Positions 1-63,605 of a stretch of 64,000 nt of DNA are shown here, piece after piece. The notes under the pieces are model-generated. The model did not search any database, was not told the DNA's origin, and saw only the letters and a program-made list of their open reading frames with translations. Numbering within the stretch: the stretch's first letter is position 1; the number at the start of each line of letters is the position of its first letter. The translations under genes were made by a program, and so were the position numbers. This stretch comes from Atriophallophorus winterbourni (taxonomy: Eukaryota; Platyhelminthes; Trematoda; Plagiorchiida; Microphallidae): contig JACCGJ010000629.1 of NCBI GenBank assembly GCA_013407085.1, positions 116,148-180,147 of the forward strand, in the 5' to 3' direction.

Positions 1-149
1 GGTTATGGGTTTAACCCCTTTTAACATGTGTTTCGACACATGCTTTGAACAGGTTTGTCGTACGAGCCTTATCCAACAGTGGCATACAAGCGCTCCTTGT
101 TTACCATTCCTCCACTGTTTCAAGCGCATGCGGATCCTGATCTTACTTT

Positions 150-191
150 CCCTACCTGATGAGTGCAAACAGCACGAAACCGGTCGTGGGG
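150..191 (+). ncRNA. Type I hammerhead ribozyme, unit 1 (intact core)
   Basis: Stem I is CCCTAC (150-155) with GTGGGG (186-191), six pairs including one G-U. The core CTGATGA is at 156-162. Stem II is GTGC (163-166) with GCAC (172-175) closed by loop AAACA. GAAA is at 176-179. Stem III is formed by ACCGGT (179-184) and C17 is at 185, so predicted cleavage is between 185 and 186. All invariant hammerhead nucleotides are present. Stem III is self-complementary without a loop, so efficient cleavage may need a dimer, as known for other short-stem-III hammerheads. Activity is inferred, not shown. Confidence 0.88.
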
Positions 192-385
192 TGTGAATGA
201 CGGAAAAGCATGCAAATGAATATTTTGTTTCATGGTTATGTGTTTAACCCCATTTAACATGTGTTTCGACACATGCTTTGAACAGGTTTGTCGTACGAGC
301 CTTATCCAACAGTGGCTTTCAAGCGCTCCTTGTTTACCATCACTCTACTGTTTCATGCGCATGCGGATTCTGAAAACCCTACTGT

Positions 386-430
386 CCCTAACTAATTGAG
401 TGCAAACAGCACGGAAGCGGTCGTTGGGGT
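386..430 (+). ncRNA. Degenerate hammerhead, unit 2
   Basis: The core reads CTAATTGAG instead of CTGATGAG, and the GAAAC box reads GGAAGC. Stem II (GTGC, AAACA, GCAC) is unchanged. Loss of invariant core bases predicts no cleavage. This unit is the most divergent of the array. Confidence 0.75.
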
Positions 431-623
431 GGTTGTGAAGGACGGAAAAAGAAGCAAATGAATATTTTGTTCATGGTTTATGGGTTTAACCCCATTTAAC
501 ATGTGTTTCGACACATGCTCTGAACAGGTTTGTCGTACGAGCCTTATCCAACAGTGGCATACAAGCGCTCCTTGTTTACCATTCATCCACTGTTTCAAAG
601 CGCATGCGGTTCCTCCTTACTCT

Positions 624-665
624 CCCTACCTGATGAGTGCAAACAGCACGAAACCTGTCGTGGGG
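624..665 (+). ncRNA. Type I hammerhead, unit 3 (weakened stem III)
   Basis: Stem I (624-629 with 660-665), core CTGATGA (630-636), stem II and GAAA are intact. Stem III reads ACCTGT, which breaks the inner pair of the ACCGGT palindrome. The predicted cleavage site is 659/660. Activity would probably be reduced. Confidence 0.78.
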
Positions 666-856
666 TGTGAATGACGGAAAAGCATGAAAATGAATATTAT
701 GTTTCATGGTTATTGGTTTGACCCCATTTAACATTTGTTTGGACACATGCTTTGAACAGGTTAGTCGTACCAGCTTTATTCAACAGTGGCATACAAGCGT
801 TCCTTGTTTACCATTCTTCCACTGTTTCAAGCGCATGCGGATCCTGATCTTACTGT

Positions 857-898
857 CCCTACCTGATGAGTGCAAACAGCAGGAAACCGGTCGTGGGT
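857..898 (+). ncRNA. Hammerhead, unit 4 (stem II closing pair lost)
   Basis: The core CTGATGA (863-869) and GAAACCGGTC (883-892) are intact, but the 3' strand of stem II reads GCAG. The G10.1-C11.1 pair next to the core becomes G-G. Stem I also loses its sixth pair (GTGGGT). Cleavage, if any, would be at 892/893. Confidence 0.75.
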
Positions 899-1089
899 TG
901 TGAATGACGGAAAAGCATGCAAATGAATATTTTGTTTCATGGTTATGGGTTTAACCCCATTTAACATGTGTTTGGACACATGCTTTGAACAGGTTGGTCG
1001 TACCAGCCTTATCCACCAGTGGCATACAAGCACTCCTTATTTACCATTCTTCCACTGTTTCAAGCGCATGCGGATCCTGATCTTACTGT

Positions 1090-1131
1090 CCCTACCTGAT
1101 GAGTGCAAACAGCACGACACCGGTCGTGGGG
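1090..1131 (+). ncRNA. Hammerhead, unit 5 (A14 mutated)
   Basis: Stems I and II and CTGATGA (1096-1102) are intact, but the GAAA box reads GACA. A14 is invariant in hammerheads, so this unit is predicted inactive. The nominal cleavage position is 1125/1126. Confidence 0.76.
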
Positions 1132-1324
1132 TGTGAATGACGGAAAAGCATGCAAATGAATATTTTGTTTCATGGTTATGGGTTTAACCCCATTTAACAT
1201 GTGTTTGGACACCTGCTTTGAACAAGTTGGTCGTACCAGCCTTATCCAACAGTGGCAATACAAGCGCCTCCTTTTTTACCATTCTTCCACTGCTTCAAGC
1301 GCATTCGGATCCTGATCTTACTGT

Positions 1325-1366
1325 CCCTACCTGATGAGTGCAAACAGCACGAAACCGGTCGTGGGG
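1325..1366 (+). ncRNA. Type I hammerhead ribozyme, unit 6 (intact core)
   Basis: Stem I is 1325-1330 with 1361-1366, core CTGATGA 1331-1337, stem II GTGC 1338-1341 with GCAC 1347-1350, and GAAACCGGTC 1351-1360. Predicted cleavage is at 1360/1361. All invariant positions are kept and the core is identical to unit 1. Cleavage here and in unit 8 would release a 466-nt dimer, or 233-nt monomers if unit 7 also cuts. Confidence 0.88.
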
Positions 1367-1557
1367 TGTGAATGACGGAAAAGCCTGCAAATGAATATTT
1401 TGTTTCATGGTTATGGGTTTAACCCCATTTAACATGTGTTTGGACACATGCTTTGAACAGGTTGGTCGTACCAGCCTTATCCAACAGTGGCATACAAGCG
1501 CTCCTTGGTTACCATTCTTCCACTGTTTCAAGCGCATGCGGATCCTGATCTTACTGT

Positions 1558-1599
1558 CCCTACCTGATGAGTGCAAACAGCACGAAACCGTTCGTGGGG
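1558..1599 (+). ncRNA. Type I hammerhead, unit 7 (stem III G to T)
   Basis: The core CTGATGA (1564-1570), stem II and GAAA are intact, and stem I keeps six pairs. Stem III reads ACCGTT, so the second pair is lost or weakened. U16.1 and C17 remain. The nominal cleavage site is 1593/1594. Confidence 0.77.
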
Positions 1600-1790
1600 T
1601 GTGAATGACGGAAAAGCATGCAAATGAATATTTTGTTTCATGGTTATGGGTTTAACCCCATTTAACATGTGTTTGGACACATGCTTTGAACAGGTTGGTC
1701 GTACCAGCCTTAACCAACAGTGGCATACAAGCGCTCCTTGTTTACCATTCTTCCACTGTGTCAAGCGCATGCGGATCCTGATCTTACTGT

Positions 1791-1832
1791 CCCTACCTGA
1801 TGAGTGCAAACAGCACGAAACCGGTCGTGGGT
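1791..1832 (+). ncRNA. Type I hammerhead ribozyme, unit 8 (intact core)
   Basis: The core CTGATGA (1797-1803), stem II GTGC (1804-1807) with GCAC (1813-1816), and GAAACCGGTC (1817-1826) are intact. Stem I has five pairs because its 3' strand is GTGGGT. Predicted cleavage is at 1826/1827, exactly 233 bases after the unit 7 site. Confidence 0.85.
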
Positions 1833-2023
1833 TGTGAATGACGGAAAAGCATGCAAATGAATATTTTTTTTCATGGTTATGGGTTTAACCCCATTTACCA
1901 TGTGTTTGGACACATGCTTTGAACAGGTTGGTCGTACCAGCCTTATCCAACAGTGGCATACAAGCGCTCCTTGTTTACCATTCTTCCACTGTTTCAAGCG
2001 CATGCGGATCCTGATCTTACTGT

Positions 2024-2052
2024 CCCTACCTGATGAGTGCAAACAGCACGAA
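2024..2052 (+). ncRNA. Truncated hammerhead, unit 9, cut at the GAA box
   Basis: The stem I 5' strand, CTGATGA (2030-2036), stem II and the first bases of GAAA (2050-2052) are present, then the repeat ends and unrelated sequence GGGGATAG begins. The array boundary therefore lies inside the catalytic core. The ATG in the core (2033) is the first ATG of the long ORF that follows. Confidence 0.8.
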
Positions 2053-3292
2053 GGGGATAGCTCACGAATCTAGCCAGTTACAACGTTCTTCTTATCAAGC
2101 TACCTCACCTAAGGTGGTTAATGGAGCCAGATTTTCAAAAGAGCGTGCAAACAAAAAGGTTGAAACAATTGCATCCACTGAGAATGCAGGCATAATTAGC
2201 CAGTTACCTCGTCCTCAAAAGCAAGCTTCCACTCCAAAGGTGGTCAACGTAGCCGGAACACCGAAAAAGCGTATCAAGAACAGTAAAGCCACTAATCAAA
2301 GGAAGCAACATGGAAATGTTGCTGGTTCACCCGAACTGGATCAAATTATACAAGAATTGAACGGTTTGCTTAAGCAGTTCGAGGCGCTGCACGGCAATTC
2401 TTCTTCATCAAAAACTAGAACCCGAAATGTACTAGTTTTTAACCGAGCGGAGACTTTCATTAGGGAATCAAAACGTCGAAGAGCTTTCGATCGCAGATGT
2501 ATCAGCGTTCTTATCCCGATGGTAATTCGGAGGCCTTCTACATCCACAGTTCGAGTTCACACTATAGGGAGATGGAAGATGGATAACCGCCCTAGGCCAA
2601 TCCTGTTAGAATTCAAATACCCGGCGGATCGGAATTCGTTATTGTCTAGGGCTGAATACATCGCCAAAATAACTCCAGAAAAGCTTCAGGTTAGGCCGGA
2701 CAATCCTTCCCCTCATATTAGGCAAAACGCTTTCGCTTCAAATAGGAGAAACCTAGCTTCAAGAACATCTGCTATCCGTAAGCCTGATGCAAATCGAAGC
2801 GCTAGTAAATCCGTTACGATCTTACCGAACAGCACATCGCGACTAGTCTTGCTGTCCGGATTAGACGACGTTGACTGGCTTATCGAAAATGAAAATGGGA
2901 GCCAAGCAGATCTCTCTAGTTGTTGCTCTCTGATGGATGCGGCCTCAATCCTCAGACAACGGTCCGTAACATCCATGCAAGAGGCTGTTGAACCGGTTAC
3001 TCCTGCTTTAAGTAGCACGCCAAAAAACGTGTTTTTTCCCTCGGGTTCTTCGACCAAAGGCCAGGTAGGATTAGTTTCAGAAGCACGCAAAACCAGCGCC
3101 CCAATGTTTAAGTCCATCACTGTCAATGGTTTTATCACACCGATGCAACAAGATTTCAAAAGATTAAAGTCCATCTTCCTTAGATCATCTCTCCAAGTAC
3201 AGAACGTCACACAATCTCGTGCGAAATCTCGTAATCATCGACCACACGTACGATCTAAATGTCATAAAAACAGGCCAGGTAAACCACGATAG
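2033..3292 (+). CDS. CR1/Jockey-like LINE ORF1 protein, 5' fused to the ribozyme repeat
   Basis: An open frame of 419 codons. The first seven residues (MSANSTK) come from the hammerhead core of repeat unit 9, so the native start may be missing. Residues 10-90 are Lys/Ser-rich with two related stretches around PKVVN (about residues 26 and 69). Residues about 105-120 (ELDQIIQELNGLLKQF) look like a short coiled coil. Residues 135-235 contain a segment with RNVLVF, ISVLIP, VRVH, RPRPILLEF and NSLLSRAEYI that I read as the RRM-like nucleic-acid-binding domain of CR1/Jockey ORF1 proteins; similar spacing occurs in the ORF1 at 32853-33757. The C-terminus is basic. No PHD-like zinc finger is seen, unlike the ORF1 at 14002. 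The role would be RNA binding in the LINE ribonucleoprotein. Gypsy-derived sequence follows directly. Confidence 0.6.
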   Translation: MSANSTKGIAHESSQLQRSSYQATSPKVVNGARFSKERANKKVETIASTENAGIISQLPRPQKQASTPKVVNVAGTPKKRIKNSKATNQRKQHGNVAGSPELDQIIQELNGLLKQFEALHGNSSSSKTRTRNVLVFNRAETFIRESKRRRAFDRRCISVLIPMVIRRPSTSTVRVHTIGRWKMDNRPRPILLEFKYPADRNSLLSRAEYIAKITPEKLQVRPDNPSPHIRQNAFASNRRNLASRTSAIRKPDANRSASKSVTILPNSTSRLVLLSGLDDVDWLIENENGSQADLSSCCSLMDAASILRQRSVTSMQEAVEPVTPALSSTPKNVFFPSGSSTKGQVGLVSEARKTSAPMFKSITVNGFITPMQQDFKRLKSIFLRSSLQVQNVTQSRAKSRNHRPHVRSKCHKNRPGKPR

Positions 3293-3294
3293 CA

Positions 3295-3780
3295 AATATT
3301 AGACTCTACATCTTTGTCAGGCAACACCCAGTCTTCTACGTTACAGACCGTGCCACGAAAATGCGATTCCTCTTCAACACTGGTGCAGAAATAAGCGTCA
3401 AAAGTCTATCCGATATGGATGGTCAAAGATGAATTTCTGGGTTTCAGACTTAACTTTCCATCGATTTTCGCGCTCGCTGATGTCAAGGTACTGATTCTGG
3501 GCACAGATTTCCTTTCCCATTTTGATCTTTAAGTCAATATAGCTGGACGTATTCTTATTGACAAGTCAACAAAGGTCAATTCATTTGGTAACTTCTGTGA
3601 TTCTCCAACCTGAATCATTCGAATACGTCTTCCTTATAACCCATCAGCTTTTATTGGTTAACCGACAGCATTTTCTGAAGTTTTTAACCGTTTTAGCAAT
3701 CTAATACCGTTGAACACGACGTCAAACACCACATCCTCGCAGATGGAACACCAGTTTTTCGAAGAATTGATTTTCTTAGG
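3295..3780 (+). pseudogene. Ty3/gypsy pol remnant: aspartic protease and start of RT
   Basis: From about 3305 the frame gives LYIFVRQ..RFLFNTGAEISV, the retroviral-type aspartic protease active-site block with the usual DTG changed to NTG. A frameshift or stop follows near 3430. The second protease block (LGTDFLSHFDL, about 3495-3531) appears in another frame. At about 3709-3765 the frame gives DVKHHILADGTPVFRRI, which is the segment just upstream of the gypsy RT fingers. Similarity then stops and a CR1-like ORF2 begins. The loss of the protease Asp, the stops and the frame changes make this a dead copy. It appears to be the 5' part of the element whose RT resumes at 6775. Confidence 0.72.
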
Positions 3781-3846
3781 ATTTTCTTACGAAAAGGGTC
3801 CGGCTCATCGCGAGTCGGACCAATAGCTACAGTACACGATTCGACA

Positions 3847-4575
3847 TTGTGTAAGACAAATACGATCAGGTGCATATATACAAATGCTCAGTGTTTAACT
3901 AACAAATTAGCTGAACTATGTGAGCTTTGTGATAGACTTTCACCCGATTTGGTTGCAGTTACAGAGACTTGGTTCCAGCCCTGCATGACTGATGCTGAGC
4001 TTTTGATTCCGAAAATGTCACTACTTCGTCGCGATCGTGATCGAAGATCCGGTGGTGGAGTTGCAGTCTACTATCACGAACGTTTAGCGCAGTGTAACGT
4101 CATCGATCATCCTGACCTCAGCCTTCCTGATACGATGTGGTGTTCAGTGAAACTAGTCAATGGAGATGAATGTACGATCGGCATCATTTACCGCTCACCA
4201 TCATCCGAAAGCTCATACAATGATAAGCTCATCGAATCATTGCAACACATCACAAGATGCCAGACTATGCAATTGCTAATCATTGGCGATTTTAATCTCC
4301 CGCATCTGTTTTCGAAAGGTGAGCACTCCCTGCATTCGTTTGAACATAAATTCAAGGAGGTTATAGAAATTGCTTCACTACACAATCATGTTAACCAGCC
4401 AACTCGCTGGCGGGGTCTTGACCAACCTTCAACCCTTGACCTTGTCTTAACGCCTGAGGCAACCGCAGTAGAGGGTATACAATACCTGGCACCACTGGGA
4501 AGAGTGATCATGTTGTGCTTTTGTTTGATTATGTATGTAGTGCGGAACGATTGTGTGAACAGACGAAAGTCATAA
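3847..4575 (+). pseudogene. LINE ORF2, AP-like endonuclease domain
   Basis: The protein shows all signature blocks of the apurinic-like endonuclease of CR1/Jockey LINEs: YTNAQCL near the N-terminus, AVTETW (catalytic Glu), GGGVAVYY, IGIIYRSP, IIGDFNLP (catalytic Asp and Asn) and LDLVLT. The final Ser-Asp-His block lies just after a frameshift: near 4500 one base appears to be missing, and the SDHV motif continues in the frame of the next ORF. The last 20 or so residues of this frame are therefore out of frame. The domain nicks target DNA for target-primed reverse transcription. The frame opens upstream of the first ATG, so the real start is likely nearer 3790. Confidence 0.85.
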
Positions 4576-6653
4576 GGAAAATACAATTTGAATCCTCAAA
4601 TATCAGTCTCCGGGATGCACACACTCATGAGTTTGATTCAATGGATCCTGGCTCATATTACAATTCGTTTCTAAATTATCTCAATTCGAAGATTTACGAA
4701 AACTCGATTTTTGTACCACACAAATGCAGCTACAACAACCAGTTTGTTATTCGGAGTAGAACGAAGAAATGGTTAGCTGTTAAGCGAGAGTCTTGGGTAA
4801 CTCATAAGAAGTTTGGTACGGAAGAAACTTGGAAACGATTCTGTAAGATACGGAATCAAGTCACTACTCTTGTAAGAGAAGATCGCATGCAATTCCAATG
4901 GAACTTGCTTAAGAGAATGGAAAAGAATCCTAAGCTTCTCTACAAGATAGTAAATGAACGATCAAAGATCAAACCAGGTGTATTCTCTGTACTAACACCT
5001 CATGGATTGACCCACACTGCCCAAGATACCGCCGACGCTTTAGCAACGTTTTACTCATTTGTCTTCAATCCCAAGCGTTGTATACCATATCAACTTTCAT
5101 CAAGTTCACCACATTTCGAATTATTAAGTGAAATGACTATCAACGAATACATGGTTGGGCGGGAACTTTGTCGACTAAACGAAAAGAAGTCCCCTGGCGC
5201 AGACAAAATTACCCCCGCCGTACTTCGCAGGTGTCGCGTTGCTTTGACTGCTCCTCTCACTCGCATATTCAATCTCAGCTTAAATGAAGGAAAAATACCA
5301 CCGCAATGGAAAGCAGGGATGATAACTCCTATTTATAAAGGCGGTAGCCGTTCAGACATAGCAAACTATAGACCGGTAACGTTACTTCCGGTGATCTCCA
5401 AATTAATGGAACGCATTGTGACTGCGCGCATAAGAGAACATTTTGAAAACCAAAATATTTTGACCGCAGCACAACACGGTTTTCGAAGAGGTCGCTGTTG
5501 CTTATCTAACCTTCTTACAACGTTCGAGGATTGGACCAAGGCACTAGACGAAGGTGAGGCTGTACATGCTTGCTACATCGATATTTCCAAAGCTTTCGAT
5601 AGAGTCAACCATGACATCTTAATTAAAAAGCTCGAATCCTATGGAATAACGGGAATATTGCTGAATTGGATAAGGGACTATCTTACTGATAGACACGTCC
5701 AAGTTCGCGTTGGCAGCACCTTATCTAGAAAAATAGACGTCACGAGTGGAGTTCCGCAAGGCTTGGTGCTTGGACCTCTTCTATTCTTGGTGTATATGAA
5801 CGATATAGTAGAGGATATTGGATGCAACTTGATACTATTTGCCGATGATATTAAAATTTGGAAACGTGTCAGGTCTGTTAATGACTGTATGGCATTACAA
5901 CGGGATCTAAGCATCTTATTTCGTTGGTCCCAGTTAAATGAGTTACCATTTAACCCTGCGAAATGTAAAATGCTGCAGCTTGGGAAATCTCTGCACCACA
6001 CGTATCAGCTTGGCACGCAAGATCTCGTCTGGACCACAGCAGAAAAAGATCTGGGTATCTGGGTTTCGTTTAACCTTAAGCCTGGACAGCATTGCCGGAT
6101 GGTGTACAATAAAGCTTGCCGTATCTTGAGTCTTCTCAAAAGAATATTCCGGATTTTTACGCCCGAAACCCTACCCCGGGTAATTAACACGTATATACGT
6201 CCTGTTATGGAATATTCCATCCAAGCCTGGGCACCATGGCTGAGGAAGGATATCGAACTACTCGACAGGATTTATCATCGTGCTACAAAGTTGGTCTCCC
6301 GGTACAGAAATTTGCCTTTCACAGAGCGAATGTTAAAACTAAACCTACAAGATTTTACCCAACGGCGGATACGTAGTGACCTTATGTTGACCTTCAAAAT
6401 CCTGCATTCTGTAAACCATCCCCTTAAACACTTGCTAAAGCCCAATGACCTTACTAGAACACGAACACATTCAAAGGCTTTAAGCATTCCGCATTCTCGA
6501 TTGGATATACGTCGTAATTTTTTCTCCGTAAGAATTTGTTTCACTTGGAACTATTTGCCTGAAGAAATCACACGATCAGAATCTGTTGAGGTTTTCGCTT
6601 CCAAACTCGATGAGTTTATGACGAACCATGCGGTATGCGAATGTCCCTATTGA
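4515..6653 (+). pseudogene. LINE ORF2, reverse transcriptase domain (CR1/Jockey-like)
   Basis: This is a long open frame of about 700 codons continuing ORF2 after the single-base frameshift near 4500. RT blocks in order are: SPGADKITPAVL, WKAGMITPIYKGG, NYRPVTLLPVISK, QHGFRRGRCC, HACYIDISKAFDRVNHD (motif A Asp), SGVPQGLVLGP (motif B, with Leu where related copies have Ser), LILFADDIKIW (motif C, catalytic FADD) and AKCKMLQLG (motif D). The C-terminal third (about 6180-6650) carries YIRPVMEYSIQAWAPWL and YHRATKLV, a signature used here to recognise fragments elsewhere in the window. All catalytic residues are intact, so the copy is fairly young. It polymerises cDNA from the element RNA at the nicked target. 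Confidence 0.88.
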
Positions 6654-6774
6654 TTTTTGAGATATTTTATATTTTTTTATATATTTTTATATGTTCCATA
6701 TACCTTGTCATCCTATGGTTATTGTTAAGCTTATTGCTTTTTCTACCATACAATTTTCTGAGTTTCTGAGTTCT

Positions 6775-7660
6775 GAGTTTTGTTCATGTATATATTGATG
6801 ATGTCCTCATCGCTATTTCGTCTCAAGTGGAACATGCAGAATATCTGCGTGCCGTCTTTAATCAACTTTCACCATTTAACGTTGCGGTTAACCCGGATAA
6901 ATTCCATTTTGGTGTAACTTCACTCGAAATTGTTGGACATCATGTCGATCGAATAGGAATTCGCCCCTTTCCTGACAATCTTTCATCAATTTACAACTAT
7001 CCATATTCCACATCACTTCGACATTTACGTTGATCCCTTGGTTTATTCAATTATTTCCTAAGATTCATTCTTAATAGTGCTCATATATCTCAACCAATGA
7101 CCGATTTGTTGCGTGGAAGCGAGCGTCAATTTAAAATGAAAGCTGGAGGTGCTAAATCGTTTCAACGATTGAATAAATCATTGAATGAAGCATCTACATT
7201 ATCTCACATATTAATGAATTATCATTCTTCACATTCGCTTGCCATTCATGCATTCCAAGCAGCAGTCAGTGCTTTCCTACAACAAAGTAATGACGGTGTT
7301 GTTGAACCGCTTGCTTTATTTTACCGTCGTCTCCAACCAGCCCAGACACGTTACATTACATTTGGTCACGAATTGTTAGCTAAATACTGTGCTTTTCGCC
7401 ATTTTCGACATGTGCTCCAAGGCTGCAATTTCACTGTTTGGACTGACCACATACTTTTGACATTTGCCCTGTCTGCTACAGCTGATAGTTATTCACCCCG
7501 TGAGATACGTCAGCTTCACTATATTTGCTAGTTTCAAGTGATATACGTTATTAATCTGCTTCACCGAAAACAGTGGCATATGCATTTTCTCGCTCGCAAC
7601 TCACTGCAATCAGTCAATAGAATTTCGATCGCAAGCATTTAGCAGAGGCTTAGCAACATA
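6775..7660 (+). pseudogene. Ty3/gypsy RT (active site) and RNase H, continuation of the 3295 element
   Basis: From 6780 the frame reads VYIDDVLIAI (RT motif C with catalytic Asp-Asp), then VNPDKFHFGV, IVGHHVD and a stop near 7033. The RNase H region resumes through about 7540: SLAIHAFQAAVSAFLQQ, PLALFYRRLQPAQTRY, FGHELLAKYCAFRHFRHVLQG and FTVWTDH (the conserved T-D-H-K block with Lys changed). RNase H-like residues continue with frame changes to about 7660. This is the typical order of chromovirus/CsRn1-like pol. It lacks the RT fingers and palm start, which were lost or displaced at the LINE insertion. Confidence 0.82.
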
Positions 7661-7799
7661 ACAGTGAATTACAGCAATATCAATCCACGTCATCCCGTAG
7701 AGCTTGATTTCTCCCTATCCTCAAATTCAGTTTGATTTTATGATGTGATTTTTCCTCTGACCATTCCCGTCCTCTATTACGAAAGTTCCAATACACTCT

Positions 7800-8150
7800 G
7801 TTCCGTGTGTTAACTATTTTACTAGGTGCTAATAACAAACAAATTACAGCTTATCACTTTTTCCCTAACGGGCTTGTTGAAAGGTTCCATCAACAGCTGA
7901 AAGCCGCAATAATTTCACATGGTAATACTGAAAACTAGTCAGAGAGACTTCCATTGATCCTTCTTGGTATACGTGCTACTGTCAAAGTAGATCACGGATC
8001 TTTCGCGGCAGGGTTAGTTCACAGCATTCCACTCCGCCCCCCTAGTGAATTGATCGCATCCCCTGACGTAACAGGAGATATTAATTTTCCAAAAATATGT
8101 CAATTGATTACGATCCTTCATGAGAAAATAAATTAAGTATTTACAAATCA
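7800..8150 (+). pseudogene. Ty3/gypsy integrase C-terminal remnant
   Basis: Around 7865-7920 the frame reads NGLVERFHQQLKAAIISHG, the block holding the catalytic Glu of the integrase DDE triad. A stop follows, then LGIRATVKVDHGSFAAGLV (7957 on), the conserved segment after the integrase core of gypsy elements, and PPSELIASPDV. The first two catalytic Asp blocks were not found between 7660 and 7800, so the core is deleted. The same blocks occur at 22257 and on the minus strand near 20980. Confidence 0.75.
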
Positions 8151-18599: not shown

Positions 18600-18890
18600 T
18601 CCTTCCATGTATTTTCATCACGACCAGTTTCGTGTTGTTTGAACTCAACAGGTAGAAACAGTACGATCAGGAACCGCATGCCTTGATTATGTGAATAAAT
18701 TTTAAACAAGGTTTAAGGTTGTTAGCCACTGTTGGATAAGTCTGGTTTGACCAACCTACTCAATTACGTGTATGCTGGGGACGCATGCAAATACGGATTT
18801 TTGTTCCAATCCCATGGGTTCAACCCCATTCATATATGTATGATTGCACAGGTTGGCTGTACCAGCTTTACCCAACAGTGGTTTACAGGC
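18600..18890. repeat. Inverted pair of 233-bp hammerhead-repeat copies
   Basis: 18605-18790 is a minus-strand copy: its reverse complement gives CCTGATCGTACTG, then CTAC, a mutated core CTGTTGA, AAACA, and ACACGAAACTGGTCGTG. Further along is the stretch matching CCAACAGTGG (18727). 18785-18890 is a plus-strand copy starting at ATGCAAATACGG and including ATGGGTTCAACCCCATT and ACCCAACAGTGG. The two partial copies meet head to head near 18788. The hammerhead core carries an A6-to-U change and an imperfect stem II, so it is predicted inactive. Confidence 0.75.
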
Positions 18891-21049: not shown

Positions 21050-21445
21050 TTTTTATTTGAAGCCGAATTTTTATTAAAAAACAAGATATAACGTTCAAGA
21101 AGCAAGTCGGAAGCACATAACCGACATCACGGTTGATGACGCTACTCAGGTATGCGTATCCGTGATCTGACGTTCGAACGCCGATCAGGCTTTATGCTAA
21201 ACACAATTATTTGCGAATTTGAGGATAAATTCTCATTTGCAAATTGAAATATAGCTTCCATGTGGGGCCAATATAAGTCCCAAAATTAATTCAATACAGC
21301 ACCGATAAATGTTTGGAATATTTTCGACATTTAAATAACAGTACGATGGTTAATTTTGCTTTGAAGCAACATTTTTATTAATAAGGAGTATATGGCGTTA
21401 TAAAAGCAGGACGAAAGCACACGACCAGTTTCGCGGTTGTGATGT
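21050..21445 (-). repeat. Hammerhead repeat family B (about 305-bp unit), locus 1
   Basis: Sequence from ATTTTTATTA at 21067 recurs from 21371, so the locus holds one unit plus the first part of a second (period about 304). It matches the locus at 63200-63605 over its whole length, including TGCGTATCCGTG, CGTTCGAACGCCG, ATTTGCGAATT and GCAAATTGAAAT. On the minus strand the complete unit should carry a hammerhead at 21106-21161, but CTGATGA has become CTGAGTAG and GAAA is lost. The partial unit retains CCGCGAAACTGGTCGTGTGC (minus strand, 21436-21417), i.e. only the 3' half of a ribozyme. It ends close to the stem II loop, just as in locus 2. Confidence 0.72.
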
Positions 21446-31384: not shown

Positions 31385-31560
31385 GGGTTTCATGGTGTTT
31401 CCACTGTTTCGGTATGGATAGCACGATCAGGATTCGCATGCTTCCACACAGTGGATAAAGGGTAAACATGCATCGCACTTGGCAGCCACAGTTTTATAAA
31501 CCTGGTACGAGCAACCTGTTCAATCACATGTGCTCACACAAATGTAAATGGTTTTAAGGA
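31385..31560 (-). repeat. 233-bp hammerhead repeat remnant, minus strand
   Basis: The reverse complement gives CATTTGTGTGAGCACATG.. GATTGAACAGGTTGCTCGTACCAGG and, further on, GCATGCGAATCCTGATCGTGCTATCC, matching the array unit between its CATGTG palindrome and the region just before the ribozyme. The hammerhead core itself is missing or unrecognisable. Confidence 0.55.
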
Positions 31561-52389: not shown

Positions 52390-52740
52390 CGTTGGCACAA
52401 CCAAACTGTTCAATCATATGCACAAACATGCAGGTAGCGGGTTAAACCAACGAACTAACACTATATATTCATATTTGCATGTGTGATAAGAATGCATGCG
52501 AATATGAAGCTTTTGTTTCAACCCATGAGTGTATCCCCATAAACAATTATGTGGTCATTTGTGATTTAACAGCTTGGACATACCAGCCTTACCCAACAGT
52601 GGCCTAAAATTTTAATCTTTGATCAACATTTCTCCATTGTTGTAAAGCATGTGGATCCCGACCACACTGTCCGTACCTCATGAGTGCCACTTGGTCCTGC
52701 TGTTTGTGCGATATAACTGGAGGCAAATATGCATTAGTTT
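52390..52740. repeat. Inverted pair of 233-bp hammerhead-repeat remnants
   Basis: 52390-52460 reads on the minus strand GGTTTAACCCGCTACCTGCATG and TTGAACAGTTTGGTTGTGCC, matching the start of the array unit. 52495-52740 is a plus-strand copy: TTTTGTTTCAACCCATGAG, TGGACATACCAGCC followed by TTACCCAACAGTGG, CTCCATTGTTGTAAAGCATG, CCACACTGTCCGTAC, then a damaged core CTCATGAG and no recognisable GAAAC box. The two halves are head to head, as at 18600-18890. Predicted inactive. Confidence 0.68.
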
Positions 52741-56649: not shown

Positions 56650-56830
56650 ACATTGGGGTTCTTTGTAAGAATCCTATTCTACAGTGGTTTGTTTACCGCA
56701 TTATTACTGTATCAAGGCCCACTGGACCTGATTTTACTGTCTCCACGTGATGACAACAAACAGTCAGAAACCGGTTGTGGTGTGTAAGTGATGGGGATGT
56801 GAGCGCCACAGTATAATGTTTTAATTTGTT
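56650..56830 (+). repeat. 233-bp hammerhead repeat copy, diverged
   Basis: CCTATTCTACAGTGGTTTG, ACTGTATCAAGGCCCAC, CTGATTTTACTGTCTCCAC, a core reading GTGATGA (C3 to G), AACAAACAG, CAGAAACCGGTTGTGGTGTG and TAAGTGATGGGGATGTGAGC follow the order of the array unit. C3 is lost, stem II is mispaired and C17 is T, so no cleavage is expected. It extends the tail variant also found at 10335 and 37969. Confidence 0.65.
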
Positions 56831-63199: not shown

Positions 63200-63605
63200 T
63201 GTTTTTAAAGTCAGATTTTTATTAATAAGTAGTATATGACGTTCGAAAAGCAGGACGGAAGCACACGACCGGTTTCGCGGTTATTGCCGATCATCAGGTG
63301 TGCGTATCCGTGACCTGACATTCGAACGCCGTTCTGACTTTGTGCTAAACCCATTTATTTGCGAATTCGAGGATAAATCCTCATTTGCAAATTGAAATTT
63401 AGCTTTTTTTATTTGGGGACTAATCGAAGTCCCACAGTTGGTGCAATGTAGCACCGGCAACTGTTTGGAATATTTTTGCAACATTCCAATAACAGCATGA
63501 TTGTAGTTTTTGTTTAAAGTCAGATTTTTATTAATAAGTAGTATGTGAAGTTCGAAAAGCAGGACAGAGCCACGACCTCGTTTTCGTTCGCCGGTTATTG
63601 CTCTA
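63200..63605 (-). repeat. Hammerhead repeat family B (about 305-bp unit), locus 2
   Basis: The block from TCAGATTTTTATTAATAAGTAG at 63211 recurs at 63520 (309 bases apart), so the locus is a complete unit flanked by a direct repeat of about 95 bases. On the minus strand the order is: partial unit (63602-63520) beginning in the stem II loop of a broken ribozyme, a complete unit with a full hammerhead (63310-63256), and the shared end AATAAAAATCTGAC. The locus at 21050-21445 has the same structure, so the short terminal direct repeats are a feature of the family. No protein is encoded. The 111-codon frame on the minus strand runs through the repeat and is not considered a gene. Confidence 0.8.
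63256..63310 (-). ncRNA. Type I hammerhead ribozyme, family B
   Basis: Read on the minus strand: stem I CGGA..GCACAC (63310-63298) pairs with GUGUGC..UCCG (63266-63256), six pairs, an internal loop, then four more. CUGAUGA is 63297-63291. Stem II UCGG (63290-63287) pairs with CCGC (63280-63277) around a six-base loop, with a U-C mismatch next to the core. GAAA is 63276-63273, stem III is the palindrome ACCGGU (63273-63268), and C17 is at 63267, so predicted cleavage is between 63267 and 63266. Only the stem II closing pair departs from consensus; a G at 63290 (minus) would restore it. The internal loop in stem I is where type I hammerheads make tertiary contact with loop II. Confidence 0.85.

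Follow-up and report, generated by a model that had tools for sequence, protein, structure and literature searches.

By what route do animal repeats that carry a ribozyme motif return to DNA? The question is raised by one end of the window, i.e. the whole 64,000-nucleotide stretch of Atriophallophorus winterbourni DNA analysed here (C565:116148–180147; assembly of 537 Mb in 15,840 contigs), where a 233-bp unit with a type I hammerhead motif is repeated in tandem. The return of animal retrozymes to DNA is left open in the literature examined, and the present genome holds thousands of copies with countable ends. We conclude that the repeat is very probably a metazoan non-LTR (long terminal repeat) retrozyme, which is a non-autonomous retroelement without coding capacity, here with a 233-bp unit, and for which an insertion cycle is proposed below. 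Much more tentatively, as a working proposal held at somewhat less than even confidence, the genome may record RNA that was reverse transcribed from two internal starts, one per target strand, by Penelope-type machinery, with a halt at a hairpin or a lap round a circular template deciding between a solo copy of ~110 bp and an array.

The 233-bp unit and its hammerhead motif

Tandem Repeats Finder returned a period of 233 bp with 8.8 copies and 92% matches at window positions 1–2052, bearing out the tandem array described in the initial annotation of this DNA. That annotation had placed the array start at base 1, which was incorrect: the whole array is C565:114864–118199 (3,336 bp, ~14.3 units), with 1,284 bp to the left of the window. 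Its GC content is 44–46% (window positions 1–2000), and no open frame of 150 amino acids lies wholly within it. The unit carries, in order, stem I (CCCUAC/GUGGGG), the core CUGAUGA, stem II (GUGC/GCAC around AAACA), GAA, ACCGGU and the cleavage C. All features below are on the plus strand, with the source of each assignment in parentheses.

1–2052, plus: right-hand part of the 233-bp tandem array, which extends leftward beyond the window
150–191, plus: unit 1 hammerhead, intact core, cut expected after base 185 (Rfam 32.9 bits, strict core scan)
386–428, plus: unit 2 hammerhead remnant, altered core (letters; without an Rfam match at E ≤ 10)
624–665, plus: unit 3 hammerhead, stem III palindrome changed to ACCTGT (Rfam 32.4 bits, strict core scan)
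857–898, plus: unit 4 hammerhead, changed stem II, GCAG (Rfam 26.1 bits)
1090–1131, plus: unit 5 hammerhead, changed A14, GACAC (Rfam 26.8 bits)
1325–1366, plus: unit 6 hammerhead, intact core (Rfam 32.9 bits, strict core scan)
1558–1599, plus: unit 7 hammerhead, changed stem III, ACCGTT (Rfam 30.4 bits)
1791–1832, plus: unit 8 hammerhead, intact core, five stem I pairs (Rfam 29.7 bits, strict core scan)
2024–2052, plus: unit 9 hammerhead, ending after GAA at the right edge of the array, unit position 178 (Rfam E 6.6, flank reading)

The pattern CTGATGAGTGCAAACAGCACGAAAC (up to three mismatches) matched nine times in the window, eight of them inside the array, with 0.00 expected, which rules out a hammerhead by chance. 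Rfam model RF00163 (Hammerhead_1, type I) matched eight of the nine window units at E ≤ 10, with E values from 8.9e-6 (units 1 and 6) to 6.6 (unit 9). The claim of a type I hammerhead in every unit therefore stands in the sense that each unit holds the motif or its remains, with unit 2 unmatched by the model. The covariance-model check that had been suggested was likewise positive by E value, but no window unit reached the gathering score of 34 (best 32.9 bits); in scans of eight other loci, three array units passed it at 34.4 bits, one in L010 and two in L021. Units 1, 6 and 8 had been called intact; this holds for units 1 and 6, with six stem I pairs, and for the core of unit 8, which has five. 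The strict core scan also returned unit 3 despite its altered stem III. The changes named for units 2, 3, 4, 5 and 7 are all present in the sequence, but such unit differences cannot safely be read as decay (see below).

ACCGGT is present in 150 of 155 units with an intact flanking core (232 units in total). Placed between GAA and C, ACCGGU permits at most one stem III pair plus a CCGG loop in a single motif, and because stem III is this palindrome the ribozyme would be expected to act as a dimer. Cofolding of two 42-nucleotide hammerheads gave –32.3 kcal/mol with six-pair stems I and III formed intermolecularly, against –14.1 kcal/mol for a single one. On these models cleavage should be dimer-dependent, as in newts. 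For axolotl HHR_Amex1, a one-pair stem III of this kind was described to work better as a dimer (PMC7229834). The newt and axolotl satellite hammerheads share with the present one a one-pair stem III closed by a palindromic tetraloop, an arrangement that requires action as a dimer; they differ in unit length (about 330 bp vs 233 bp) and host (PMC7229834).

The fold of the whole unit was modestly better than that of shuffled sequences, both linear (z = –1.8; 9/200 as good) and circular (z = –2.0; 9/200). Stem pairing was tested over one array unit and 18 hand-picked old copies. Stems I and II were paired in 76.2% of cells (shuffled mean 70.2, 0/500 as high; slid versions 26–53%), and 10 stem I/II cells were changed on both sides, compared with 4.6 in shuffles (5/500). 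As a comparison of sequences this lends moderate support to the hammerhead, moderate because related rows can exceed shuffles.

The exact 30-base core occurred 3,450 times in the genome (1,654 + 1,796), with 0 occurrences of the reversed control. This genome-wide count, proposed in the initial annotation, supports spread through the genome; the retrozyme-like organisation suggested there is supported as well. A 24-base word from unit positions 65–88 occurred 2,390 times, fewer than the longer core, as expected if many copies are without that half of the unit. No core match was found in viral contigs, where near records of the source genome may be excluded. The metazoan non-LTR retrozymes of coral, mussel and axolotl also have tandem units of 170–400 bp with GC below 50% and one type I hammerhead each, no long frame in the array, dispersed clusters, and target duplications in some copies (PMC7229834). 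The 233-bp repeat fits these published elements and looks like a separate family, set apart by description.

Insert ends, target duplications and orientation

Two samples of copies were drawn. The array sample comprised the window's left flank and 19 other array regions picked by unit similarity, plus further pieces; the core-listing sample comprised ten of the first eleven clusters (C14 was skipped) and two head-to-head clusters picked by orientation. Five of the ten core-listing loci were solo pieces of 78–118 bp, two were head-to-head and three same-strand.

The 3′ ends were assigned to two unit windows, 213–233 (site A) and 93–107 (site B). With readable flank (n = 24), 14 ends fell at 213–233, seven at 93–105 and three elsewhere (178, window array; 170, L018; 31, one arm of L022). 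Excluded from this count were L024 (same flank as L018), one gap-ended L021 array, a 28-bp L014 fragment, and any end lying at the limit of a contig or fetched stretch. Two later 3′ ends fit site A (229 in L060, 230 in C7837); four other arrays fetched later did not reach an end. Array 5′ ends were scattered. Solo copies bounded by target duplications covered unit positions ~112–224 (L066), 122–224 (L069) and 116–219 (L073), as placed by eye. A hairpin is predicted at unit positions 75–119 (outer strands 75–82/112–119, inner strands 86–90/96–100), with the solo 5′ ends at its 3′ foot and site B at its inner stem. No indel hotspot, a sign of template jumping, was seen at the cleavage site.

Seventeen inserts with both outer ends were tested for exact repeats whose copies lie no more than 12 bases from the respective boundary (in L067 the left one was set by eye). 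Duplications of 10–13 bp were present in seven (L017, L022, L066, L069, L070, L073 and L075), compared with 0 of 1,500 random placements. At a length of at least 9 bp the figures were nine of 17 and 0.13% of the 1,500, the 9-bp cases being L076 and L071, of which L071 is doubtful owing to large offsets. Repeats of only 0–5 bp were found at C565 (the window), L023, L030, C7837, L065, L067, L072 and L074. By shape, duplications accompany five of seven head-to-head inserts, three of five solo copies, and none of four simple arrays plus the doubtful L071. These duplications support the earlier suggestion that units are re-integrated.

Opposite-strand neighbours within 2 kb were head-to-head in 10 of 10 cases and tail-to-tail in none, among the matches listed (182 places in 129 clusters; 18 same-strand places of C129 were left out). 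Two of these head-to-head clusters, C102 and C115, correspond to L075 and L076. Head-to-head inserts with a 9–13 bp duplication were L017, L022, L070, L075 and L076, and not C7837 or L074. One arm of each of those five ends at ~219–233 (for L076 this lies past the alignment, whose last position is 218); the opposite arm ends at 97 (L017), 99 (L075), 107 (L076), 78 (L070) or 31 (L022), read by eye from the letters. The arms of L017 are separated by ~930 bp of other sequence holding an old pair of family copies, both arms of C7837 end near site A, and L024 is head-to-head too, its right end being off the contig.

Proposed insertion cycle and its alternatives

In the cycle that we propose, the array would be transcribed, and two hammerheads, paired with each other by way of ACCGGU, would cleave after GGUC. 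The resulting unit-length RNA would be ligated into a circle. A trans-acting enzyme would nick the target and prime reverse transcription inside the RNA at site A or B, proceeding toward the RNA 5′ end. A stop near unit positions 112–122, at the foot of the predicted hairpin 75–119, would leave a solo element of ~105–113 bp, and synthesis continuing round the template would give an array. If priming occurs on both target strands, at A on one and often at B on the other, the complementary DNAs would meet head-to-head inside one duplication.

Copying of RNA circles has been proposed for metazoan retrozymes, with Penelope-like elements as a strong candidate for the mover (PMC7229834). By comparison with published elements, a Penelope-like element is also the likeliest candidate for the helper enzyme here, at about even odds. 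Penelope inserts consist of direct pseudo-LTRs and an inverted one, mostly head-to-head, with duplications of 8–10 bp; they have captured 0.9–1.5 kb of host DNA, and tandem or inverted copies without duplication also occur (PMC3846280). For one Penelope protein, cleavage and extension of both strands were shown, with synthesis initiated within the RNA at two adjacent sites (PMC11167929). The present family shares with these elements head-to-head inverted copies, short duplications, two internal start sites, captured DNA (cf. the 930-bp middle of L017) and a weak stem III; it differs in that the retrozyme unit is without a reverse transcriptase (RT) or nuclease frame and in that its 3′-end sites are ~125 nucleotides apart, not adjacent (PMC11167929, PMC3846280). 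From the published metazoan retrozymes it is set apart by solo half-units, two 3′-end clusters and head-to-head inserts in one duplication (PMC7229834). The parts of the retrozyme and Penelope literature covered contained no description of retrozyme inserts arranged head-to-head within a target duplication. This insertion anatomy is the new part, and it suggests that a satellite array could arise in a single insertion. The Penelope proposal (PMC7229834) becomes testable through the two 3′-end sites, the head-to-head orientation and the duplications; two-site Penelope-type priming, if true, would identify what moves animal retrozymes and would mean that some satellite arrays are born in one step.

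The same retrozyme might be moved by a LINE (long interspersed nuclear element) and not by a Penelope-like element, the head-to-head inserts coming from twin priming, which we consider possible but on the unlikely side. Twin priming is known for L1, and in LINEs it yields a head-to-head arrangement, the same layout as seen here. The window itself contains endonuclease-RT elements (Pfam), which we take to be CR1-like and an example of such a LINE, and the protein at 4458–6650 has fluke relatives; the closest named relatives of one retroelement protein came from Paragonimus westermani (50%) and Dicrocoelium dendriticum (42%). However, the retrozyme 3′ ends have neither an A-tail nor a microsatellite tail, and a pair of distinct internal 3′ ends would be unusual for a LINE. 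A 3′ tail in common with the window's endonuclease-RT elements was looked for and none appeared at E ≤ 1e-3, the search of the window with the unit returning only apparent family copies at that threshold.

Several observations weigh against the retrozyme cycle with two-site, Penelope-type priming. The windows for sites A and B were set after the ends were seen, and the 3′ end of the window array (178) matches neither. The window's own array has no target duplication, and neither do the other simple same-strand inserts L023, L030 and L067, L071 having the doubtful 9 bp; a duplication is also absent from the solo copies L065 and L072 and from two of the seven head-to-head inserts, C7837, where it had been predicted and was looked for, and L074. 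In the Penelope element PAc of Anolis, both strands have the same start sites, unlike the A/B split here, and insertion in vitro persists when the hammerhead is mutated, so that cleavage may be dispensable (PMC11167929). The hammerhead is not unusually conserved within the units (rank 46 of 233). In the stem pairing test, two of five measures, pairs changed on both sides (103/500) and further pair types (108/500), did not exceed shuffles, and the structure was derived from one of the test's own rows. Assembly error may account for some of the unit "damage", because the transition fraction among unit substitutions, 0.30–0.42, resembles the 0.33 predicted for random errors; for comparison, three old repeat pairs in the window gave 87/163 = 0.53. 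Two unit types, largely linked, are mixed inside long arrays. Finally, a genuine Penelope element was not identified, since the four copies examined among 17 GIY-YIG matches all lie beside Gypsy-like sequence.

Those 17 matches over the cut-off came from the best 150 of 1,370 candidates scored. The GIY-YIG domain is directly upstream of Gypsy-like sequence, a label given by eye where Pfam named only GIY-YIG, in L038:1249–2055 (minus strand), L077, L078 and L079. It runs into that sequence in one open frame in L038 (minus strand) and L077, and in another frame in L078 and L079. L077–L079 are 96–97% identical to each other over 1.2 kb and showed no similarity to the retrozyme unit at E ≤ 1; Rfam found no hammerhead in L038. 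In these copies a Gypsy element may have captured a nuclease of Penelope type. Separately, L038:1–4241 is a large palindrome with arms 90–99% complementary, possibly an assembly artefact.

The make-up of the arrays bears on how they grow. The two linked types, GGCT and CCGC at unit positions 34, 56, 64 and 110, are interspersed within arrays; the window array switches type after unit 3, and several short arrays (L011, L014, L016 and L022) are uniform. One monomer circle cannot yield such mixed arrays. Private variants were common to neighbouring units in 29 of 1,245 cases at lag 1 (2.3%), compared with 1.4% between arrays. Copying of all units of an array from one circle is therefore unsupported, given the mixed types and the hardly shared private variants, though error-like substitutions blur both. 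The mixture might come from multimeric templates, from template switching or from exchange between arrays.

A satellite that expanded through unequal crossing-over and gene conversion, its hammerhead being a passive relic, would accommodate the mixed unit types in long arrays, the lack of special hammerhead conservation, and the recurrence of the window array junction on two other contigs. We nevertheless regard it as improbable. Local amplification predicts far more sharing of private variants between neighbours than was seen, a test weakened by assembly errors, and the 129 clusters, the solo copies and the target duplications require insertion. As the sole mechanism it is contradicted by the duplications; exchange inside arrays may occur.

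The junction at 2053 and neighbouring repeats

To the right of the retrozyme array, and scattered through the window, lie the following features.

2053–3292, plus: first part of a multicopy element that has an open frame; junction with the array also on C11057 and C2379
9108–9178, plus: old diverged family fragment, 73% (unit similarity search)
18619–18763, minus: old diverged solo copy, 78% (pattern and unit similarity searches)
31386–31557, minus: old diverged solo copy, 75% (unit similarity search)
52565–52687, plus: old diverged solo copy, 75% (unit similarity search)
56698–56819, plus: older copy, 74%, ACCGGT kept (later search for old copies)

The element from 2053 is multicopy, and among the best 40 of 577 candidates three were at 100%: the window, C11057 and C2379. 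C11057 is collinear with the window at 4712–4912 and 7212–7412, across a nested insertion, and C2379 matches 4703–4903. Four of seven downstream samples were unmatched in place (~3.1 kb extra), and the upstream samples differ from the window's left flank. From these alignments the junction is counted as one event, either duplicated or represented in several haplotypes; the array may also contain a misjoin. The open frame 2015–3292, searched as 2030–3289, had no Pfam family at E ≤ 0.1 and no homologue at E ≤ 0.001 among 3,933 candidates.

That the array is the 5′ end of a coding element at 2053–3292, with the ATG of the hammerhead core as its start codon as in PAc, is very improbable: the open frame does cross the junction with an ATG at 2033 in CTGATGA, six related copies (L041–L046, from the 37 others scored) are preceded by different sequence at this point, and the PAc frame begins at stem II within the hammerhead (PMC11167929), but besides the window the junction occurs only on C11057 and C2379 among the copies examined, these look like duplicates or haplotypes of one event, and an in-frame join is expected by chance in ~1/3 of cases. 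The position of this first ATG in the hammerhead core may be chance. After comparison of the flanks of the junction contigs, we set aside the idea that the array serves as the promoter or beginning of the element downstream.

Window positions 3283–8150 hold Gypsy-like pieces, of which RNase H was identified by Pfam (7034–7528) and the others by eye; an endonuclease-RT element at ~3787–6653 splits them.

Among fluke repeats, mobile or satellite, the schistosome W elements also contain a hammerhead (PMC8490949). S-alpha is another such repeat. In schistosome S-alpha short interspersed nuclear elements (SINEs) the hammerhead lies downstream of a transfer RNA (tRNA)-like stretch. The 233-bp unit is presumably distinct from S-alpha; no tRNA-like promoter was noticed in it by eye, no tRNA search having been made on the unit. 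In the present genome a tRNA-like SINE (by eye) with its own hammerhead, at L014, is separate from the 233-bp unit. This different hammerhead, L014:7575–7619 (minus strand), scored 36.1 bits, above the Rfam cut-off, and lies just downstream of the tRNA-like stretch. Two separate pairs of another repeat are present at window positions 21056–21438 and 63204–63591, with copies 304 and 309 bp apart and 67–87% like a reference copy.

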